A stretch of 33,610 nt of DNA, from positions 1-33,610 of IMG/VR virus record IMGVR_UViG_3300043119_000756, one strand, 5' to 3'. The stretch is from a virus. Each line of letters starts with the position of its first letter. The stretch's first letter is position 1. This document shows positions 1,760-15,427 of this stretch, piece by piece. A model generated the notes under the pieces. It did no database searches, was not told the origin of the DNA, and saw only the letters and a program-made list of their open reading frames with translations. Made by a program: the position numbers and the translations under genes.

Positions 1760-1788
1760 AGCATAGCGCGCTATGCTGTACCCCGCAA
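1760..1788 (-). promoter_or_regulatory. Leftward promoter overlapping a perfect 18-bp palindrome
   Basis: On the minus strand TTGCGG (1788-1783) and TATGCT (1765-1760) are separated by exactly 17 bases, as in a sigma-70-type promoter. The last part of the spacer and the -10 lie in AGCATAGCGCGCTATGCT (1760-1777), a perfect palindrome. Its core recurs at 4044-4055 and 11709-11720. A protein bound here would cover the -10, so repression is the simplest reading. Predicted transcription starts near 1753, ahead of the gene at 1701. Confidence 0.65.
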
Positions 1789-1806: not shown

Positions 1807-3540
1807 CTACAGCGCGTCCAAAGCCCCCATCAGCACGCTAATATCAACGCCCCGTTCCGCCGCGTCCCTCGCCAGCGCATAGGCGCGCTCTACCGCATCG
1901 AGGCCATCGTCGTGGATGCTGGCCCGCGGGAAGCCGGCGAGCTGGACATCGAGCCGCAGGCGCGACACCTCGCCAGGCAGCACGCCCGCGTCCACGTCGG
2001 CGAGCTGCAGCTGCCCCGTCTCCAGCGGCAGCCCGAGGCTCGCCAGCCGCGGGGCCTTCGCCCCGGTCGTGTGCGCCAGGCCGAGCGGCGGCGCCGAGGG
2101 GCGGCGCGCCCTGTCTGCCTCGCGCTGGAGCCGGCTCCACTCGTCCTGCAGCAGCGCCCCGCCCTGGTTTGCCTCGGCCCCGACCTTGGGTGCCCAGCGC
2201 CGATACCGAGCCCACAGCCCCCACAGCCGGGCCACGGACTGCGCCGGGGCCTCGCGCACAGCGACGTGCTCAAGGACGGCGGCCAGCCCGGTGCGACGGT
2301 GGACGGCGACCACGGCGAGGCCCGAGAAGTCGTTGCGGTCCACTTGGTGGCTGTTCCGCGGGTCGAGCCACACCCCGATGTCGCAGTCGCCGAGGCCGAC
2401 CTCGAGCCCGTCGTGCGTCCGCCACCCCACGGGCAGCCCATCGCCGTCCTCGCGCAAGATGGCCCGCCGGATGTGGTGGACCGCGAAGACCTGCGCGTCG
2501 CCGCTGATGGGGCGCTGCTGGTAGTCGCGGAAAAAGCCGACCCGTCCGCCATCCCACAGCCGCTCGACCAGCGACCACAACGGCTGGTAGACCGGGTGGA
2601 GCACCCGCCCGCCGCGGTCGAGCTCATCCCGGTGCCGCAGGTACAGGGCCCTCGCCGTCGCCCTCCGCTGCGGGTCGCTGCGGTCGAGGTAGGCCCGGCG
2701 CACCTCCTCCCACCGCGAGCCCGGCCGGTCCACGCCCTCGCCCAGCCCCTCTGGCCAGCTCAGCACGGCGGGGAGCGTGGTGCGGTCCCAGCCGAGGTCC
2801 GTCTCGGCGTGGCTCGGCAGGCTACCCTCGCCCAGGTCCGTGGCGCCGTAGATGCAGGCCAGCCCACCCTCCGGTGGCCCAAGGTTCCCGATGTCGTCGG
2901 CCAATCGCGCGCGCATCCGGGCCCGCGTGCTCGGAGAGTCGAGGTGCTCCGGCTTTTCGACGTCATCGAGGACAACCAGCGTCGGGCGCTTCCCGTCCCG
3001 GTTGAGCCCCCGAATGGTGCCGCTGAGCGCCCGCGCCGACAGGTGCACCACGCCCCCGCCGCCGCTCACCTGAGCTTCGGAGAGGTTGCCGATCCACGCC
3101 CGCGCCCCGTGGAGCCGCCGCAGCAGGGGCCGCTCCGTCGCATCGGCGAGCCCGCGCAGCGTGCCGACTTCGGCGTCAACGGCGGTCGCCTCCGGGCCGA
3201 TGACGACGACATAGGGCTCCAGCCGATGCAGCACCCGATGCAGCAGACCCAAGCGAAGGAGCGAGGTCTTGGCACCGCCCCGCGGCCCCGTCACCACCCG
3301 CCGCCGCGGGCTCAGCCCGGCGCGCTCGGCCGGCAGCGGGAGGGTGTCGAACCAACCGCCGATGTCGTGGTGGAGGGCCGAATACTCGGCGCGCACCACC
3401 TCGGGAAAGCACACGCGCCCCCACAGCAGCATGTCCCGCTGGCACTCCCGGCGCAGCACCGGCAGCCGCTGCTCGGCGGGGAGCGCGGCGACGGCGCGCA
3501 GGTAGGCCGCCGTGCTGATGCCGCTGGCGCCGATGCTCAC
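1807..3540 (-). CDS. terL: Phage terminase large subunit
   Basis: This is the ATPase-nuclease that pumps DNA into proheads and cuts it. From a GTG start at 3540, overlapping the previous TGA as GTGA, the product is 577 residues. The longer in-frame start at 3762 is rejected because it covers a separate gene. Visible motifs are a Walker A-like GPRGGAKTS (85-93), Walker B LVVLDDVE (188-195), and a C-terminal RNase H-like nuclease with acidic residues in DCDIGVWLD (385-393), GAEANQGG (454-461) and IHDDGLDA (542-549). It is unusual that the gene sits more than 10 kb from the portal gene on the opposite strand, among early-type genes. Its own promoter and operator lie at 4026-4055. Confidence 0.92.
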   Translation of the reverse strand: MSIGASGISTAAYLRAVAALPAEQRLPVLRRECQRDMLLWGRVCFPEVVRAEYSALHHDIGGWFDTLPLPAERAGLSPRRRVVTGPRGGAKTSLLRLGLLHRVLHRLEPYVVVIGPEATAVDAEVGTLRGLADATERPLLRRLHGARAWIGNLSEAQVSGGGGVVHLSARALSGTIRGLNRDGKRPTLVVLDDVEKPEHLDSPSTRARMRARLADDIGNLGPPEGGLACIYGATDLGEGSLPSHAETDLGWDRTTLPAVLSWPEGLGEGVDRPGSRWEEVRRAYLDRSDPQRRATARALYLRHRDELDRGGRVLHPVYQPLWSLVERLWDGGRVGFFRDYQQRPISGDAQVFAVHHIRRAILREDGDGLPVGWRTHDGLEVGLGDCDIGVWLDPRNSHQVDRNDFSGLAVVAVHRRTGLAAVLEHVAVREAPAQSVARLWGLWARYRRWAPKVGAEANQGGALLQDEWSRLQREADRARRPSAPPLGLAHTTGAKAPRLASLGLPLETGQLQLADVDAGVLPGEVSRLRLDVQLAGFPRASIHDDGLDAVERAYALARDAAERGVDISVLMGALDAL

Positions 3541-3779: not shown

Positions 3780-3994
3780 GCCAGCCTCCCGAAAAGCTGC
3801 CGGGCCAGCATCACCGCCAGCCGCCGCCCCTCATCGGTGGTCGGGAAGCACACCACGCGCCCCTCCCGCACCGCGTACACCACCACGGGCGCGTCATCCC
3901 CGAGCTGCGCCGCCACGTCCTCGGCTGTCATCGGCGCCCCGTGCTCGGGCTGAACCACGAGCTCCCCACCGTCCTTGACCACGCTGAATCTCAT
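3776..3994 (-). CDS. Hypothetical protein (72 aa), first gene of the terminase unit
   Basis: The start at ATG 3994 has GGAGGT five bases upstream. The earlier in-frame ATG at 4045 lies inside the palindrome and upstream of the predicted transcription start, so it is rejected. The product (MRFSVVKDGGELVVQPEHG, then VVYAVREGRVVCFPTTDEG) looks like a compact beta-sheet protein ending in a helix (RRLAVMLARQLFGRLA). It is unrecognised. It precedes the 80-residue gene and terL. Confidence 0.65.
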   Translation of the reverse strand: MRFSVVKDGGELVVQPEHGAPMTAEDVAAQLGDDAPVVVYAVREGRVVCFPTTDEGRRLAVMLARQLFGRLA

Positions 3995-4025: not shown

Positions 4026-4055
4026 CCTATATCGGCTCCACCCATAGCGCGCTAT
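4026..4055 (-). promoter_or_regulatory. Leftward promoter with ATAGCGCGCTAT palindrome over the -35
   Basis: On the minus strand TAGCGC (4054-4049) and TATAGG (4031-4026) are 17 bases apart, giving a start near 4019 and a short leader to ATG 3994. The 12-bp palindrome ATAGCGCGCTAT (4044-4055) covers the -35 and contains the TAG stop of the gene at 4052-4546. The -35 departs from the best form (TA for TT). An alternative -10, TATGGG (4046-4041), lacks a good -35. The site matches those at 1760-1777 and 11708-11721. Confidence 0.5.
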
Positions 4056-4546
4056 AGCCCCGTCGCGCCCGCCCTCGACATCGCCAGCGCCTGCGCCGCC
4101 GCAACCTCAGCGACCCGCTCCAGCGCGGCGCTCAGCGCGTCCCCCTCCGCAGCACCCGCGCCCGCGAGCCCCTCGGGGTCCACCCACGCCCGCTCGGCCC
4201 GCCACAAGGCGACGGCCTCCCCGACGCGCTTGGGGTCTTCGCTCGCCAGCCCGCGGCGCACCGCGAGGATGACGGCGCGCGCCACCTCCCGCTCGCTCAC
4301 CGGACCGTCATCCGGCTCGCGCTCCGGCTCGCTCGCTGCGAGTGCCTCCGCGGCAGCGGCAGCGGCGGCCGGGGCCTTGGCGGCGTCGCCTTCCAGGGCC
4401 GCCCCAATGGCCCGCCACGCAGCCACACGGGCCGCCGCGCGCAGAGTCGCCGGGGTGAGCGCGGGGGCGCCGGCGAGGGTGAGGGTCCACGCCTCGACCT
4501 GCTCGGTGAGCGGGGCGGGCGGTTCGGTGGTCTTCGGTGCCATCAT
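4052..4546 (-). CDS. Hypothetical protein; possible terminase small subunit
   Basis: The 164-residue product is Ala- and Glu-rich and mostly helical by composition. It has a central acidic, Pro-containing linker (SEPEREPDDGPVSEREVARA) and a C-terminal helical part. Two adjacent ATGs (4546 and 4543) are possible starts after GGAG. Small terminase subunits are short, helical and often lie just before terL, so this is a candidate by position and size only; no helix-turn-helix is obvious. A promoter lies between it and the terminase unit, which weakens the case. Confidence 0.6.
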   Translation of the reverse strand: MMAPKTTEPPAPLTEQVEAWTLTLAGAPALTPATLRAAARVAAWRAIGAALEGDAAKAPAAAAAAAEALAASEPEREPDDGPVSEREVARAVILAVRRGLASEDPKRVGEAVALWRAERAWVDPEGLAGAGAAEGDALSAALERVAEVAAAQALAMSRAGATGL

Positions 4547-6357: not shown

Positions 6358-6808
6358 GCCCCACCCCGATGGCGCGCACGCGGACCTCGCAGCAGCTACG
6401 CTCGCGAGCGTCGCGGGCGTAGCTGCTGGTGTGCACCGCAACCGCGCCCCACACCCGCCGGGTGTTCTCGGCGCACACCTGCTTATCGTTCACCACCACG
6501 CCCGACTCTTGAAGCACGTCCATCACGCCCTTGAGCACGTTGTCAAGGTCCGGGCTCCCGACGTGCGGAGCTCGCGCTGCGCCGCCCCGGAGCGCCGGGG
6601 TCAGCGGGCGCTGAATCACGATGACCAGCTCCAACTCCACCGGCCCGTCGTGCCGCAGCATGCGCGCCTCCGCTACAGCAGCACAGGCGGCCCTCTTCCA
6701 CGCGACGTACTGGAGCGGCATGTAGACCCCGTTGACGCCCAGCCTTGGCCGATTCCAGGCCACAACGCCGTCGAACCGCACCGAGCACCACCCATCCTCG
6801 CCGCTCAT
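6347..6808 (-). CDS. rusA: RusA-family Holliday junction resolvase
   Basis: The 153-residue product matches the RusA endonuclease family, dimeric metal-dependent enzymes that cut four-way junctions. The signature PDLDNVLKGVMDVLQESGVV followed by NDKQV (86-111) carries the expected acidic residues D87, D89, D97 and D108, with K109. The N-terminus has the usual substrate-binding basic segment (AWNRPRLG, 17-24). In this phage it would resolve branched DNA from replication or ERF-driven annealing before packaging. It overlaps the next gene by 11 bases and the previous gene by ATGA. Confidence 0.88.
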   Translation of the reverse strand: MSGEDGWCSVRFDGVVAWNRPRLGVNGVYMPLQYVAWKRAACAAVAEARMLRHDGPVELELVIVIQRPLTPALRGGAARAPHVGSPDLDNVLKGVMDVLQESGVVVNDKQVCAENTRRVWGAVAVHTSSYARDARERSCCEVRVRAIGVGHDR

Positions 6809-7068
6809 GCCGCACCCCCGGCGGCGACGTGCTTATTCCAGCGGGCCCGCGCCCGCGCAAGCGAGTCGCTCGTGATGATGTCGGTTCGGCCGAGCAGCTT
6901 CCAGCAGCCCGACCAGGTGGCGAGGAGCCGCCCATCCTCCAGCCGGGCCACGAGCTTCCGCCGGATGAGGCTCCGCACGGTGGCCTCGCTCTTGGTGTCG
7001 GTCCCACCGCTTGCAGCGATGCACGCCAGGGCCCACCACTGCGGCTTGCTCAGGTCTTTCGCCTTCAT
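6805..7068 (-). CDS. Small winged-helix-like protein (87 aa)
   Basis: The sequence (LSKPQWWALACIAASGGTDT, ATVRSLIRRKLVARLEDGRL) follows the pattern of a winged helix: helix, a short helix-turn-helix ending in IRRKLV, and a hairpin wing. It could bind DNA, which makes it one candidate for the regulator of the palindromic operators, though dimerisation is not evident. It joins both neighbours by ATGA overlaps. The assignment rests on pattern alone. Confidence 0.6.
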   Translation of the reverse strand: MKAKDLSKPQWWALACIAASGGTDTKSEATVRSLIRRKLVARLEDGRLLATWSGCWKLLGRTDIITSDSLARARARWNKHVAAGGAA

Positions 7069-7310
7069 CGCCCCACCTCCGCGAGCCGCATGCGCAGCCC
7101 GGCCACCTCGATCTCGAGCTCATCGATGCGCACCGCCCGCTCGGCCGCCTCATCGCGCGCCTCGCCCCGCTGCACTTCGACCGCCGCGACCCAAGCCCGC
7201 ACCGCGAGCTCGGCCGCCCTCGACTCGCGCCGCAGGCTGGCAACCCCGATCAGCCACGCCAAGCCCTCGCGCCCCGTAGCCTCGGCCTCCCCGACCATGC
7301 GCTTACCCAT
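7065..7310 (-). CDS. Hypothetical helical protein (81 aa)
   Basis: The product is almost all charged and Ala/Leu helix (RAAELAVRAWVAAVEVQRGE, RIDELEIEVAGLRMRLAEVG) and probably forms a coiled coil. The start at ATG 7310 lies within the end of the preceding gene (ATGGGTAA). An inner ATG at 7298 is also possible. No family is recognised. Confidence 0.6.
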   Translation of the reverse strand: MGKRMVGEAEATGREGLAWLIGVASLRRESRAAELAVRAWVAAVEVQRGEARDEAAERAVRIDELEIEVAGLRMRLAEVGR

Positions 7311-7764
7311 TCACTACCTCCCACCGCCCCATCGTCACACCGTCCTTGCTGACCGCGCGCCCACCGCGCAGCAGCATCCAGTCCGACCCCGGCAGCGCTC
7401 CAAGCGCCTCGCCGTCAACGACCCGGTACAGGTGGCCGCCCACCCGCACCGTGCCCTCGGCAGGCGGCTCCACCCGCGCCGCCTCCCAGGCCGCCACATC
7501 GTCAGCGCCGAGCACCTCGCCGGCCGCGGGGCCGGGCCAGTAGCGGGTGGGCTCGTAGGAAGAGGAGCGCGGCCCCCGCACCACAAACCCGTGGTTGACG
7601 GCGAAGACGGCGTATACCCGCGCCGACGATGGCGTGGCGCCGCCAGGGATGACGGCCGCCACCGCTGCCGTGGTCGGGGCGTGGCCGCTGCTCGCCACCT
7701 CGGCCACGGCCTTGGTGAAGGCCTCGGCCATCCTGCGCTGGTAGCTGATCGCCGGCGCGCTCAC
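7303..7764 (-). CDS. Hypothetical protein (153 aa)
   Basis: The N-terminal half (RMAEAFTKAVAEVASSGHAP, TTAAVAAVIPGGATPSSARV) resembles a helical DNA-binding-type domain. The C-terminal half is beta-rich (TVRVGGHLYRVVDGEALGAL, MLLRGGRAVSKDGVTMGRWE). It is not recognised. It is the second gene of the leftward early operon, with ATGA coupling to the first. Confidence 0.65.
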   Translation of the reverse strand: MSAPAISYQRRMAEAFTKAVAEVASSGHAPTTAAVAAVIPGGATPSSARVYAVFAVNHGFVVRGPRSSSYEPTRYWPGPAAGEVLGADDVAAWEAARVEPPAEGTVRVGGHLYRVVDGEALGALPGSDWMLLRGGRAVSKDGVTMGRWEVVNG

Positions 7765-8075
7765 GACAGGCTCGCGCGGACGCGGGCGAGGGCCACCTTG
7801 ACTTGGTCACCGGCCTTGCCCAGCGGCGGGACATCGTAGATCGCAGCGATGGCCTCGCGGGCAAACTGGCGCGGCGAGGTGTCCCACACCACACTCCAGC
7901 GCGACTCAGACATCACCGATGCGAAAACGTCCGTCTCGTGCTCGTCATCGTGCGTCTTCAGCGCCGCCGCCAAGTCGCGGTCGAAGTCATCGCGCCCCGG
8001 CGTCTTGGTGGTCACGATGGCGATAAGCACCGCCACCACGTCATCCAGCAGGTGAACCTCACCAACCTTTCCCAT
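7761..8075 (-). CDS. Hypothetical protein, first gene of the leftward early operon (104 aa)
   Basis: The ATG at 8075 follows a purine-rich GAGGGAGGG ribosome binding site. The product (MGKVGEVHLLDDVVAVLIAI, TTKTPGRDDFDRDLAAALKT) is acidic and unrecognised. It is transcribed from the minus-strand promoter at 8112-8140, which is interlocked with the rightward promoter for the lipoprotein gene. As the first product of a switch-controlled unit it is a reasonable candidate for an early regulator, but no DNA-binding motif is clear. Confidence 0.65.
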   Translation of the reverse strand: MGKVGEVHLLDDVVAVLIAIVTTKTPGRDDFDRDLAAALKTHDDEHETDVFASVMSESRWSVVWDTSPRQFAREAIAAIYDVPPLGKAGDQVKVALARVRASLS

Positions 8076-8090
8076 CGCACCCTCCCTCGG

Positions 8091-8119
8091 TGGACACCCA
8101 CCGGCCCCAATGGTATAGC
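8091..8119 (+). promoter_or_regulatory. Rightward promoter for the lipoprotein and methyltransferase genes
   Basis: TGGACA (8091-8096) and TATAGC (8114-8119) are separated by exactly 17 bases. Predicted transcription starts near 8126, followed by an AAGGAG ribosome binding site (8148-8153) and ATG 8159. A half copy of the palindrome, CATAGCGCGC (8129-8138), lies just after the start point. Confidence 0.65.
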
Positions 8120-8140
8120 ACCGTGCGACATAGCGCGCAA
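8112..8140 (-). promoter_or_regulatory. Leftward early promoter interlocked with the rightward one
   Basis: On the minus strand TTGCGC (8140-8135) and TATACC (8117-8112) are 17 bases apart. The -10 shares 8114-8117 with the -10 of the rightward promoter, so polymerase can probably occupy only one at a time. The half palindrome at 8129-8138 overlaps this -35. Predicted start is near 8105, ahead of ATG 8075. Confidence 0.6.
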
Positions 8141-8158
8141 CCCCCCCAAGGAGAAATC

Positions 8159-8452
8159 ATGCCCCGCCCTCACGCCGCCGCCCTCCTCGCCCTCCTCGCT
8201 GCCGCCTGCTCGGCCATCGGCGACACCGCCGCCGACGACGGCACCACCACCGCCAGCGGCGCCGCCATCGAGGTGGTCGAGGTGGCCGCCGAGGTGGACG
8301 GAGTCGAGGTGCCGGGCGTCATCCTCAGCGCCCACGCCTGCGCGTACCCCTACAGCGCCGCCGGCCGGTGCGAGCCCGCCGCCTTCTTCAACGACCGCGG
8401 CACGGTGTACGTGGAGGCGAGCGGCTACTGGCGCCTCGTGGTGCTCCGGTGA
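8159..8452 (+). CDS. Phage-encoded lipoprotein (97 aa)
   Basis: The start at ATG 8159 has AAGGAG five bases upstream. The N-terminus (MPRPHAAALLALLAAACSAI) is a typical lipoprotein signal with lipobox LAAAC, so the mature protein would begin at Cys17 and be lipid-anchored. The rest is a short acidic linker and a small beta-rich domain (EVVEVAAEVDGVEVPGVILS, RGTVYVEASGYWRLVVLR) with two further Cys residues. It is transcribed early with a methyltransferase. Small phage lipoproteins of this kind often alter the host surface or block superinfection, but that role is inference here. Confidence 0.8.
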   Translation: MPRPHAAALLALLAAACSAIGDTAADDGTTTASGAAIEVVEVAAEVDGVEVPGVILSAHACAYPYSAAGRCEPAAFFNDRGTVYVEASGYWRLVVLR

Positions 8453-9513
8453 GCGCGCCGGGTGGGCCGCTGCGCTGTCTGGAGCTTTTCGCCGGGGCCG
8501 GGGGCGCTGCTCTTGGCCTGGCCTGGGCTGGCGTTGAGCACGTCGCCCTCATCGAGCGCGACCCGGCCGCCTGCGCCACGTTGCGGTCGGCCGGGCTTGG
8601 CCTGGTCATCGAGGGCGATGCCGAGGACGTGGCGGCCCGGATGAAGGACTGGAGCGCGGCCATAGAGCCCGCCGCGTGGGCCCGCGCTGGGGATGACCTG
8701 CTCGACTCGGAGATCGGGGGCGAGGACGATGACCCGGACGCTTGGCCCCTTGCGCGGGAGGCCCTGGCGTCGCGGCTGGTGGCCGAAGCGCAGCGGGTGG
8801 ACCTGCTCTGGTCATCCCCCCCGTGTCCGCTGCACAGCCGGGCCAACAGCCGGCGCCGCGCCGAGGCCTTCGACGGCTGGCCCACCACCCTGGCGTGGGT
8901 CGATGCGCTGGGCCCGGAGTGGGTCGCGGTCGAGAACGTGCAGGCGGCGCTTGATGTGGCTCGGGACGTGTGGACCGCGGCCCTCACAAGGCGCGGGTAT
9001 TCCGTGGTGTCCGCCATTCTCGACGCCGCTGACTACGGCGTGCCCCAATGGCGCCGCCGGGTAGTACTGCTCGCCCACCGCGGCGGGCCGGTGTTCCTCC
9101 CCGAGCCGACGCATGGCTTCTGCCGCGCGCCGCACCGGACGCTCGCCGAGGCCGTGCCGCTTCTGCTCGCCGAGGATGACCCTCACCTGCGCTACACCGA
9201 GGGGCGCGCGGCCTCGGAGCGGTGGAGGCTCGGGGTGCCCGCCCCGACCGTGATGACGACGGAGGTGAAGGGGACGCGGGCTTCGGCGGCCTCGGGGTGG
9301 ACCTTCCACGGCGGGCCCGACCGGGCGAGCGACGCCGCTTATCTGGCGGTGGGGCGGCGGCGCCTGACCTGGCAGGAGTGCGCGGCGCTCCAAGGCTTCC
9401 CCGAGCACCACCCCTGGCATGGGACCGCCGAGGAGCGGTATCGGCAGGTCGGGAACGCGGTGCCGCCGCAGTTAGCCGAGGCCATCGGGCGCGCCCTGGT
9501 GAGCGCAGCATGA
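8449..9513 (+). CDS. dcm: DNA (cytosine-5-)-methyltransferase
   Basis: The 354-residue product from GTG 8449 (GTGA overlap with the lipoprotein stop) shows the ordered C5-methyltransferase motifs: SAM-binding LELFAGAGGAALGL (11-24), catalytic SSPPCPLHS with Cys126, ENV (162-164), PQWRRRVVLLAH (199-210), and the C-terminal LQGFPEH (314-320) and QVGNAVPP (333-340). It transfers methyl groups to cytosine in a specific sequence, probably protecting phage DNA from host restriction. An acidic insert (GEDDDPDAWP, around 91-100) separates motifs I and IV. No restriction endonuclease is adjacent. The target sequence cannot be told from the protein. Confidence 0.93.
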   Translation: MSAPGGPLRCLELFAGAGGAALGLAWAGVEHVALIERDPAACATLRSAGLGLVIEGDAEDVAARMKDWSAAIEPAAWARAGDDLLDSEIGGEDDDPDAWPLAREALASRLVAEAQRVDLLWSSPPCPLHSRANSRRRAEAFDGWPTTLAWVDALGPEWVAVENVQAALDVARDVWTAALTRRGYSVVSAILDAADYGVPQWRRRVVLLAHRGGPVFLPEPTHGFCRAPHRTLAEAVPLLLAEDDPHLRYTEGRAASERWRLGVPAPTVMTTEVKGTRASAASGWTFHGGPDRASDAAYLAVGRRRLTWQECAALQGFPEHHPWHGTAEERYRQVGNAVPPQLAEAIGRALVSAA

Positions 9514-9722: not shown

Positions 9723-10043
9723 CCGCTTGCACGCCGGGCGCCGGCCCGGTACGATGCCGGCGTCGTCGTGCTTTCGCGGGCGCGGCGGCAGCGGATCCGC
9801 TCGGGGATGGGCCCCCGATCGGCCAGATGACCGCCGGGCGATGTTGCTCGGCGGCCGTCTGCGTTTTGGGCCCCCGCTTGCGGACGTGCCCGCGCCGTGC
9901 TATGCCTGCGGTGGGCCACGAGTGCCCTCGGCTGTACTCCTTCCGCCGCGCCTTGCCAGCGCACCCCGCCCGCCGCCCCGGAGTAGCTACCGGCCAGCGG
10001 CGGGCGGCTGGGAGGGGATGGTCTACTCCCGGAAGGAGACGAC
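9723..10043 (+). other. Intergenic region: promoter and long leader before the replication gene
   Basis: This 321-base gap holds the promoter at 9727-9755 and then about 280 bases of GC-rich leader. An open frame from ATG 9841 to TGA 10047 (68 codons, with a CYACGG motif) ends by overlapping the initiator ATG (ATGA), but it has no ribosome binding site and a Pro/Arg-rich composition. It may be a real small gene or chance. The leader could be structured. I see no operator palindrome here. Confidence 0.5.
9727..9755 (+). promoter_or_regulatory. Promoter for the replication gene
   Basis: TTGCAC (9727-9732) and TACGAT (9750-9755) are exactly 17 bases apart, right after the stop at 9722. The -35 resembles the TTGC type seen at 1788, 8140, 11695 and 14123. 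Unlike most of the others this promoter carries no ATAGCGCGCTAT palindrome. Confidence 0.6.
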
Positions 10044-10047
10044 ATGA
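9841..10047 (+). CDS. Doubtful small ORF in the leader (68 aa)
   Basis: The frame begins at ATG 9841 and ends with TGA overlapping the ATG of the replication gene, the joint style used throughout the window. It contains VPAPCYACGG but is otherwise Pro/Arg/Ser-rich, as chance frames in GC-rich DNA are. No ribosome binding site precedes the start. Low confidence. Confidence 0.25.
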   Translation: MLLGGRLRFGPPLADVPAPCYACGGPRVPSAVLLPPRLASAPRPPPRSSYRPAAGGWEGMVYSRKETT

Positions 10048-11189
10048 CGGACACACCAGCAGGGGCCTCGCCTCCGCTCAACCGTGGGCGAGCCGCGGAC
10101 CTCATCGGCAGGTCACCGCTCAGCGCCCACCAAAAGCTCATCCTGCTCGCGTACATGAGCCACCTGCCGAGCGAGCGCCCGCCGGATGCTGGCGTCGCGT
10201 GGCCGGGTCTGGAGACGCTCAGCGCCTGGGCTTCGTGCTCGCGCTCCACCGCGCAGGCGGCACGGGCTGAGCTTCTCGCCGCCGGCATCCTCGTGGCCGT
10301 GGAGCGGGGCGACACCTCGATGAAGTGCAGGCTGGACTTCGACCGCTTGGCGGGCTGGGAGCCCCCGGCCCGCGACAGCCGGAGGGGGGGTGCCGGTAAT
10401 CGGCAGGGTGCCGATGTTCGGCAGGGGGGGGTGCCGGTGTTCGGCATAGGGGGTGCCGATGTTCGGCAGGGGGGGGTGCCGGTGTTCGGCACCGAACCCT
10501 CCTCAGACAACCCTCCTCACCAACCCTCCTCAGACAACCCTCCTAAGCTCATGGCGGGCCCGGCCTGCGCCGAGCCCCCGGCGGCTGGCGCCGCCCAGCT
10601 CTCGCTCCTCGGGGCTGAGCCTGAGCTGCCGAAGGTCAAGCCGCCGAAGCCAACCAAAGCCGCCCGCGAAGTCGAGGCCGCCGCCGTGCTCTTCACCCGC
10701 CTCGAACGGCTGCGACTTGAGCGCTACCAGCGCCTTGGCCGGACCGTGCGGGGGCTCTCCCCCGAGGCATGGGTGCCGAAGCTGCGGAAGGCGCTGGCGA
10801 AGACCACGGCTGGCGACATCGAGGATGGATGGGTGTGGCTGCTGAGGCACCCGGACGCCGCTTGGTATCGGGGCGAGGACCGCGGCGGGAGCGACCGCTG
10901 TGTGGACTTCGCCATGCTGCTCGCGCATCCGGAGTATGGGGCGCGGCGGACCTGGGCGGGCCTCAACGGCCTGACGACGATCGAGCAGGAAGAGGTGGCC
11001 GCGTGGCTGGCGAGCGGTGGGCGCTCGGCGGACGCGCCGGCCTGGCGAGAGAGGATGCGGGCTGCCGGTGCGCAGGCGCCCAACTCCGAGGAGGAAGACG
11101 ATGAGCTATTCAACGGAATCGGAAGTACAGGACGCCATGAGGGCTCTTCACCGTCGGCTGCGGACGATGGGTATCGCTGCCCCTTCTGA
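10044..11189 (+). CDS. Replication initiator-like protein with winged-helix domain and internal origin
   Basis: The ATG at 10044 follows GGAAGGAG. The 381-residue product has an N-terminal winged-helix domain of the kind found in phage replication proteins (SPLSAHQKLILLAYMSHLPS, LETLSAWASCSRSTAQAARA, ELLAAGILVAVERG; about 24-92). Next comes a low-complexity linker (about 113-168) encoded by the iteron cluster, and then a charged helical C-terminal region. The arrangement parallels lambda O: an initiator gene carrying its own origin. No helicase or polymerase is present, so host enzymes would be recruited. The last 89 bases overlap the next gene in another frame, so the C-terminal end is less certain. 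Confidence 0.78.
   Translation: MTDTPAGASPPLNRGRAADLIGRSPLSAHQKLILLAYMSHLPSERPPDAGVAWPGLETLSAWASCSRSTAQAARAELLAAGILVAVERGDTSMKCRLDFDRLAGWEPPARDSRRGGAGNRQGADVRQGGVPVFGIGGADVRQGGVPVFGTEPSSDNPPHQPSSDNPPKLMAGPACAEPPAAGAAQLSLLGAEPELPKVKPPKPTKAAREVEAAAVLFTRLERLRLERYQRLGRTVRGLSPEAWVPKLRKALAKTTAGDIEDGWVWLLRHPDAAWYRGEDRGGSDRCVDFAMLLAHPEYGARRTWAGLNGLTTIEQEEVAAWLASGGRSADAPAWRERMRAAGAQAPNSEEEDDELFNGIGSTGRHEGSSPSAADDGYRCPF
10391..10491. repeat. Five iterons with inverted arms: candidate replication origin
   Basis: Five 15-bp copies of TGCCGRTGTTCGGCA lie at 10391-10405, 10409-10423, 10432-10446, 10454-10468 and 10477-10491. The first is degenerate (TGCCGGTAATCGGCA). The outer bases TGCCG/CGGCA are inverted, so each unit could bind a dimer. 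The last four are 22-23 bp apart, close to two helical turns, with G-runs between them. Position inside the initiator gene fits an iteron-type origin bound by the protein it encodes. Confidence 0.8.
10495..10547. repeat. Four direct repeats AACCCTCCT next to the iterons
   Basis: Units AACCCTCCTCAGAC (10495-10508), AACCCTCCTCACC (10509-10521), AACCCTCCTCAGAC (10522-10535) and AACCCTCCTAAG (10536-10547) follow the iterons with a 13-14 bp period. The stretch is less GC-rich than its surroundings and all pyrimidine-rich on one strand. It may be the unwinding or helicase-loading part of the origin. Confidence 0.75.
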
Positions 11190-11694: not shown

Positions 11695-11723
11695 TTGCGC
11701 GCGGCGGCATAGCGCGCTATGGT
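11695..11723 (+). promoter_or_regulatory. Rightward promoter overlapping the CATAGCGCGCTATG palindrome
   Basis: TTGCGC (11695-11700) and TATGGT (11718-11723) are exactly 17 bases apart. The palindrome CATAGCGCGCTATG (11708-11721) covers the spacer end and the -10, in the same geometry as the leftward promoter at 1760-1788. Predicted start is near 11730, before ATG 11775. The unit it drives includes the ERF recombination gene. Confidence 0.68.
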
Positions 11724-14093: not shown

Positions 14094-14130
14094 CCCGCCG
14101 CGCTCTCACGGGTGCGGCGGGCTTGCTTTT
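14094..14130 (+). terminator. Rho-independent-like terminator after the recombination operon
   Basis: CCCGCCGC (14094-14101) and GCGGCGGG (14114-14121) form a perfect 8-bp stem with a 12-base loop, followed by CTTGCTTTT. The T-rich tail doubles as the -35 region of the late promoter, so the early unit ends exactly where the late unit begins. Confidence 0.65.
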
Positions 14131-14151
14131 GGCCTCGGCTCGGCGTAGGCT
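14123..14151 (+). promoter_or_regulatory. Late-operon promoter, probably giving a leaderless portal mRNA
   Basis: TTGCTT (14123-14128) and TAGGCT (14146-14151) are 17 bases apart. The expected start, about seven bases after the -10, falls at or next to the portal ATG (14159-14161), and there is no ribosome binding site before it. The portal message is therefore predicted to be leaderless. Confidence 0.6.
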
Positions 14152-14158
14152 GGCGCGC

Positions 14159-15427
14159 ATGAGCCTCTGGACCAACCTCCGCACGCGCTTTGCCCTGGCG
14201 CTCCGCTCCCTCCTCGGCCCCGGCGCCGAGGCTGAGACGCGCGCCCGCCTGCTCGGGCTGCCGGCGCCGCGACTGCCGATGGAGCGCGAGGTAGCCGTGG
14301 GCGGGCAGGACGCCAGCCGCGCGGCTTCGCGGTCGGCGCTGGTGAGCGCGGTGCTCGGGTCGAGCTTCGCGCAGACGTGCATGGGCAGGACGGCCAACGC
14401 CATCGCCGACACGCCGCTCAGCACGCTCGACCGCGCCGGGCAGCCCGTGGAGGCGCCGCAGGTGGCCGAGCTGCTCGGGTCCGCGTCCGGTGGCGAGCAT
14501 GGGCTGATGCTCCAACTTGCGCTCGACCTGCTCGCCGACGGCAACGCTTTCGCCGAGCTCCGGGGTGAGCCCACGCCGACCTCGCCGCGCCTCGGGCTCG
14601 TCATCCGGCACGACCCCGGCGACGTGACGCCGATCGTGGACGCCGAGGGGCTCATGGTCACCGGCTACCGCGTGACTACGCTGGCCGGGCAGTACACGGT
14701 CGCGCCCGGCCGCATGGCCCACGCCCGCCTGCTGCCGATCCGCGAGCGGCCCGACCACCTGCTCGGCGTGCCGCCGCTCTACGCGCTGCTGCCTGAGCTG
14801 GCGGGCGACCGCTCGCTCGCTGACTACCTCGCCACCCGGCCCCACGGTGTCGAGGACGGCGTGCTGCTGCGCTCTCGGAGCACGGATGCCGGGGGCCTCG
14901 CCGATCAGGTGCGGCTGGTCAAACGCTTCCGAGAGCGGACCGGCCTTTGGGTCGCCACCGATGGGGCCGAGTTGACCAGCCTGGGCGCTGGCATCGGCGC
15001 CCCGCGGGATGAGCTGCCGATGCGTGAAGACCTGCGCCGGTCGGTCATTCTCGCGCTCGGCCAGCCGCCGATTCTCTACGGGTTCAGCGTGACCAACGAC
15101 AGCGCCGCGCTGATGCAGGTCAGGGACGCCGCCGAGGCCCGCCGTGACCTAGCCGCCGTGCTCACCCGCGCCTTGCAGCCGATGGTCGATGCCGTCGCCA
15201 CCCCCGCCCAGCGCCGGGCCGGGCTGCGGGTCGCTTGCGACTGGCAGGCCGAGCTCGCGCTTGAAGCTCTCGCCGCCGAAGAGCAGCGCGCCCGGCTGGC
15301 CGCTGCCGCCATCGCTGCCGGCGCCGACCCGGCCCGCGCGTACGAGGCGCAGGGGCTCGTCTGGCCCGGTGCCGCCGCTCTCTCCCCCGCCGATGAGGCC
15401 GCTGGCCTTCGCCTCGTGAGGTCTTGA
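14159..15427 (+). CDS. Phage portal protein, HK97 type
   Basis: The 422-residue product has the features of HK97-family portals: an N-terminal helical part, SALVSAVLGSSFAQTCMGRT with an APQVAELL segment, a central region with LLADGNAFAELRG and the wing segment VTGYRVTTLAGQYTVAPGRM, HARLLPIRERPDHLLGVPPL, and a C-terminal stem with ELPMREDLRRSVILALGQPP. It forms the dodecameric ring through which terminase packages DNA and to which the tail connects. Start ATG 14159 was chosen because the earlier in-frame codon lies in the promoter. Its TGA overlaps the protease ATG (TGATG). Confidence 0.9.
   Translation: MSLWTNLRTRFALALRSLLGPGAEAETRARLLGLPAPRLPMEREVAVGGQDASRAASRSALVSAVLGSSFAQTCMGRTANAIADTPLSTLDRAGQPVEAPQVAELLGSASGGEHGLMLQLALDLLADGNAFAELRGEPTPTSPRLGLVIRHDPGDVTPIVDAEGLMVTGYRVTTLAGQYTVAPGRMAHARLLPIRERPDHLLGVPPLYALLPELAGDRSLADYLATRPHGVEDGVLLRSRSTDAGGLADQVRLVKRFRERTGLWVATDGAELTSLGAGIGAPRDELPMREDLRRSVILALGQPPILYGFSVTNDSAALMQVRDAAEARRDLAAVLTRALQPMVDAVATPAQRRAGLRVACDWQAELALEALAAEEQRARLAAAAIAAGADPARAYEAQGLVWPGAAALSPADEAAGLRLVRS

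Follow-up and report, generated by a model that had tools for sequence, protein, structure and literature searches.

Shared -10 bidirectional promoters, described in bacteria by Warman, Grainger and colleagues (PMC12825309, PMC10268837), are already an established class in which -10 elements of opposite strands overlap, leaving room for one polymerase, while additional -35 elements and regulators set the output in each direction. In Escherichia coli, 19% of detected RNAs arise from such promoters; their start sites usually lie 18 bp apart (distances of 10 and 23 bp are also common), and the two directions compete only once one of them is substantially activated (PMC12825309, PMC10268837). A word search of these two papers (PMC12825309, PMC10268837) finds no phage example. 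A second relevant system is the Pc/Pr pair of pLS20 (PMC4207663), in which divergent promoters overlap on a mobile element and operators lie over the core promoters. The pLS20 pair is a real switch, in which a regulator found among its own products acts differently on each promoter through multiple operators and looping (PMC4207663).

The locus compared here with these systems is the 83-bp gap at 8076-8158 in a small, unclassified tailed phage of bacteria (virus record IMGVR_UViG_3300043119_000756; GC 73%). The whole stretch of DNA analysed, 33,610 nt, is referred to as the window. The gap separates a leftward 104-aa gene from a rightward 97-aa putative lipoprotein gene and holds two predicted promoters, D+ (rightward) and D- (leftward), whose -10 elements have a TATA in common (Table 1). 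By its sequence D fits the established class, and we consider it reasonably probable that the gap works as one of its members, a bidirectional promoter that launches both arms of the genome, and not as a bistable switch. As in the bacterial cases, the -10 elements of opposite strands overlap. By contrast, D is known from sequence alone in a high-GC phage, its predicted starts (D+ ~8126, D- ~8105) are 21 bp apart when 7 bp are assumed from -10 to start, rather than the preferred 18, 10 or 23, and neither -10 element ends in the usual T. D resembles pLS20 Pc/Pr in the overlap of divergent promoters and the placement of a putative operator over a core promoter, but it has a single half-site and a candidate regulator, and shows no sign of two states. 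The predicted D+ and D- leaders are each about 30 nt long and each include a Shine-Dalgarno sequence. Reading the D- -10 element as TACCAT gives a start distance of 23 bp but a spacer of 19 bp, against the 17 bp of the phage's own promoters, and is a minor alternative.

Table 1. Positions of promoters, candidate operator sites, genes and conserved sequence in the window
Feature	Position	Strand	Remarks
Promoter A-, TTGCGG-N17-TATGCT	1760..1788	-	Upstream of the gene starting at 1701; conserved in the relative
Palindrome CATAGCGCGCTATG, exact copy	1762-1775		Over spacer and -10 of A-
Promoter B-, TAGCGC-N17-TATAGG	4026..4054	-	Upstream of the gene starting at 3994; conserved in the relative
Palindrome copy CATAGCGCGCTATA	4043-4056		One mismatch to CATAGCGCGCTATG; over the -35 of B-
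Second leftward gene	7303..7764	-	153 aa; N-terminal part winged-helix-like (AlphaFold2)
First leftward gene	7761..8075	-	104 aa; 40% identical in the relative
Identical block	8071..8119		49/49 in the relative; leftward start codon, Shine-Dalgarno, leader, whole D+, D- -10
Possible leader hairpin, CGGTGG-GTGT-CCACCG in RNA	8088..8103	-	6 bp; overlaps the D+ -35
Promoter D+ (rightward)	8091..8119	+	TGGACA 8091-8096, N17, TATAGC 8114-8119; extended -10 (TGG before TATAGC)
Promoter D- (leftward)	8112..8140	-	TTGCGC 8140-8135, N17, TATACC 8117-8112
TATA common to both -10 elements	8114..8117		Self-complementary
Half-site CATAGCGCGC	8129..8138		Exact half of CATAGCGCGCTATG; conserved in the relative
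First rightward gene	8159..8452	+	Putative lipoprotein of 97 aa; 92% identity with the relative
C5-cytosine DNA methyltransferase	8449..9513	+	PF00145, E=3.3e-38; no match in the relative
Promoter E+, TTGCGG-N17-TATGCC	9878..9906	+	Precedes the replication gene; carries no palindrome
Promoter C+, TTGCGC-N17-TATGGT	11695..11723	+	Upstream of gene 11775; conserved in the relative
Palindrome CATAGCGCGCTATG, exact copy	11708-11721		Over spacer and -10 of C+

The window has no terminal repeat, and its circular order is borrowed from a collinear relative, IMG/VR contig 3300034104_005655 (32300 bp), the map of which is taken as circular because a 127-bp exact repeat stands at its two termini. On this map the leftward genes run from 8075 down to 84 and from 33478 down to 32201, and the rightward genes from 8159 to 32199; the genome thus has two arms, one convergent junction and one divergent junction, the latter being the 8076-8158 gap. 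RusA and the terminase large subunit are encoded on the left arm, and a replication protein, an Erf annealing protein, the portal and the head/tail region on the right arm. The terminase large subunit gene (1807-3540) is distant from the portal gene (14159) and on the opposite strand. No DNA match to named phages was found, and distant protein matches were limited to the terminase and the methyltransferase. The portal, replication protein, winged-helix protein and palindrome queries gave no relative but this one, and the 104-aa protein and the methyltransferase led to none. Of the matches to the D pattern, the relative was the one gone through individually. Conservation is a comparison of two genomes, the window and this relative.

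A sequence-only reading had described both D promoters, and its hexamers, 17-bp spacers, coordinates, shared -10 bases and operator half-site are all exact. Promoters were scored by their match to the E. coli consensus, from which the sigma-factor consensus of the host may differ. On this scale, which may not be the host's, D+ scores 9/12, and no other sigma-70 match in the window reaches 9; about 1.4% of gap shuffles attain that score on the plus strand. On the same borrowed scale D- scores 7/12, as do about 44% of gap shuffles and 220 matches in the window. A sigma-70 scan requiring T at position 6 of the -10 element detects neither promoter. The geometry is seldom reached by chance: when the 83-bp gap was shuffled 5000 times with dinucleotides preserved, 21 shuffles (0.4%) gave a divergent pair that is equally good and has a -10 overlap of at least 4 bp. 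Because TATA is self-complementary, one copy serves either strand and the sharing of the core is nearly automatic; what is not trivial is the presence of a plausible -35 element at 17 bp on each strand.

The E. coli score understates the case for D-, because this promoter belongs to a class of five promoters of the phage itself. A search for T[TA]GCG[CG], 16-18 bases and TAT returns five matches in 33.6 kb, compared to a mean of 0.1 in shuffles for spacer 17, a figure that is optimistic since the motif was drawn up after four members had been seen. All five have a 17-bp spacer, are intergenic and are oriented toward the next gene, and the four besides D- lie inside the arms (A and B on the left, E and C on the right). 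Promoter E (9878), which precedes the replication gene, played no part in motif building. The relative carries the same five promoters, with the fifth (E) in the form TTGCGT-N17-TATGCC, and D+ lies outside the class. The class -35 (TTGCG) is similar to a degenerate mycobacterial promoter consensus, TTGCGA/TANNNT (PMC12288462), and the GCTAT -10 of the phage to the Caulobacter consensus GCTANAWC (PMC8144410); neither likeness identifies the host, and scans of host genomes gave no match. A conserved TTGCTT-N17-TAGGCT, also seen at 14123-14159, stops 7 bp short of the portal start codon (14159) with no Shine-Dalgarno sequence, and possibly yields a leaderless late mRNA.

Four of the five class promoters (A, B, C and D) carry the 14-bp palindrome CATAGCGCGCTATG or its half-site, while about 5e-5 copies of the exact 14-mer are expected. 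The palindrome occurs in two registers, over the spacer and -10 element at A and C and over the -35 element at B and D. The three full or near-full sites and the half-site are all at intergenic promoters, and the relative keeps all four, as in a phage operator regulon. The simplest reading of this distribution would be a dimeric repressor, and it is probable, to judge from the sites, that D and three other promoters are jointly controlled through one repressor-like site. In 434-type phage repressor/operator systems the palindromes are likewise about 14 bp long and are repeated at several phage promoters. The OR/OL triplets of those systems are clustered, whereas here single sites lie over four promoters and a CI/Cro-type gene was not detected among the proteins scanned. 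Other contigs bearing the palindrome were rejected as relatives, as they have no protein related to those of the window and mostly differ in GC, and so look like chance occurrences.

The half-site at D spans the -35/spacer of D- and positions ~+4 to +13 of the D+ transcript. The proposal that it biases the choice of direction holds in that the half-site is real, conserved and placed over the D- -35; a protein bound there would probably hinder both directions, leftward first, since the D- -35 is overlapped and the predicted D+ start is just upstream.

The intergenic region is strongly conserved in the relative, which keeps D+, D- and the half-site. The identical block (Table 1) is followed by a stretch at 8120-8128 with 3/9 identical positions (33%) and constant length, and then by 15/15 identical positions at 8129-8143, while the coding DNA beside D has 52% nucleotide identity; a run such as that at 8071-8119 was reached in 0 of 20000 column shuffles. 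The variable stretch is the middle of the D- spacer and equally the discriminator/start region of D+, and variable spacer bases at an unchanged length are as expected for a promoter. Within 8071-8119, conservation of D+ is not separable from the constraints that the leftward gene places on its leader and its ribosome-binding site. A 116-bp block at 9937-10052, nearly all noncoding and just before the replication gene, is also identical in the relative. The strongest support for D is the class membership of D- together with the conservation of the region, both of which go beyond the argument of the sequence-only reading. Sequence and conservation support overlapping divergent promoters, and D is real, conserved and probably functional.

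The alternative that survives best, though unlikely, is that D- alone is real and the D+ hexamers are a by-product, with the lipoprotein gene either off in this phase or transcribed from another site. The reading of TATA on both strands, the absence of D+ from the phage class and the sufficiency of a leftward leader to account for the conservation of 8071-8111 are consistent with this view, as is the location of TGGACA within a possible hairpin of the D- mRNA leader, where a 6-bp inverted repeat covers the D+ -35. The hairpin does not clearly exceed shuffles in stability, however (-10.7 kcal/mol for the element; z -1.1), and D+, which has the window's highest sigma-70 score, stands exactly in front of a gene that has a good Shine-Dalgarno sequence, a product 92% identical in the relative and no other class promoter facing it. 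More doubtful is a reading in which a regulator of non-CI/Cro type uses the one 14-bp palindrome in its two registers (-10 at A/C, -35 at B/D), with the D half-site tuning how polymerase is split between the arms over time.

It is very improbable that D is a developmental switch in which mutually exclusive promoters, biased by the operator, choose between the leftward operon and a lipoprotein-methyltransferase unit, as was first proposed. The D promoters do overlap with a common -10, and pLS20 demonstrates that overlapping divergent promoters with a regulator can switch (PMC4207663). The idea that D admits only one polymerase at a time is sensible and has precedent in this kind of layout; exclusive outputs, however, do not follow from overlap alone, since the basal activity of such promoters in E. 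coli is too low for competition (PMC12825309). Genes of the same lytic cycle and further promoters are located on each arm, and lytic functions split in this way require that both arms be expressed in one infection. The hallmarks of a CI/Cro switch are not seen: (i) the flanking genes encode the 104-aa protein and the putative lipoprotein, with no repressor-family match, instead of divergent regulators, (ii) Pfam and PHROGs matched none of the proteins scanned, a set that leaves aside about a dozen structural-region genes, to an integrase, another lysogeny function or a CI/Cro-type repressor, and (iii) in place of operators clustered over both promoters there is a single half-site. Lytic genes and promoters on both arms, with no integrase or CI/Cro found in the scanned set, thus make an exclusive two-state switch unlikely. 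The supposed rightward output is also not conserved as a unit, in that the relative lacks the methyltransferase, which appears to have been gained or lost recently. Least probable is a conserved block with a mainly non-promoter role at the RNA or DNA level, for instance in leader folding, in packaging or as a centromere-like site bound by a protein, as suggested by the long, perfect noncoding conservation and the inverted repeat at 8088-8103, since the D- hexamer pattern recurs with its 17-bp spacing at four other gene starts, the D- spacer contains variable bases and the fold is not unusual.

The product of the second leftward gene is a candidate, and at this stage a guess, for the operator-binding protein, based on a fold modelled with moderate confidence. 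AlphaFold2 predicts a helix-helix-helix-strand-strand order (pLDDT ~71-83 at residues 11-60; mean 64), the structure search gives weak winged-helix matches of the MarR/ArsR type, none at E<=0.001, and a sequence search of solved structures found nothing; most of the presumed recognition helix is kept in the relative. An 87-aa gene at 6805-7068, winged-helix-like by eye, is absent from the relative; it is not preferred as the regulator because the relative keeps all sites without it. On the right arm, five 22-nt repeats (GGGGGGGTGCCGGTGTTCGGCA type) occur at 10384-10491 within the replication gene (10044-11189) and resemble the iterons of the lambda-type origin inside the O gene.

In the preferred reading of the gap as a shared -10 bidirectional promoter, the single TATA would serve as the -10 core for both D- (TTGCGC-N17-TATACC) and D+ (TGGACA-N17-TATAGC), and D would start both arms during lytic growth. 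A dimeric protein binding DNA at CATAGCGCGCTATG would repress A, B and C, and the same protein may repress D more weakly, acting through the half-site over the D- -35 and mainly on the leftward start. When one direction is strong, the overlap may link the leftward and rightward outputs of D. At the level of sequence, D is a clean, conserved bidirectional promoter at the only divergence point of an unclassified high-GC phage, and it brings with it a testable promoter/operator class, made up of five promoters and four operator sites, in a group of viruses of which no member has been studied. Should the coupling prove true, the phage would balance the two arms of its genome via polymerase competition at one site.
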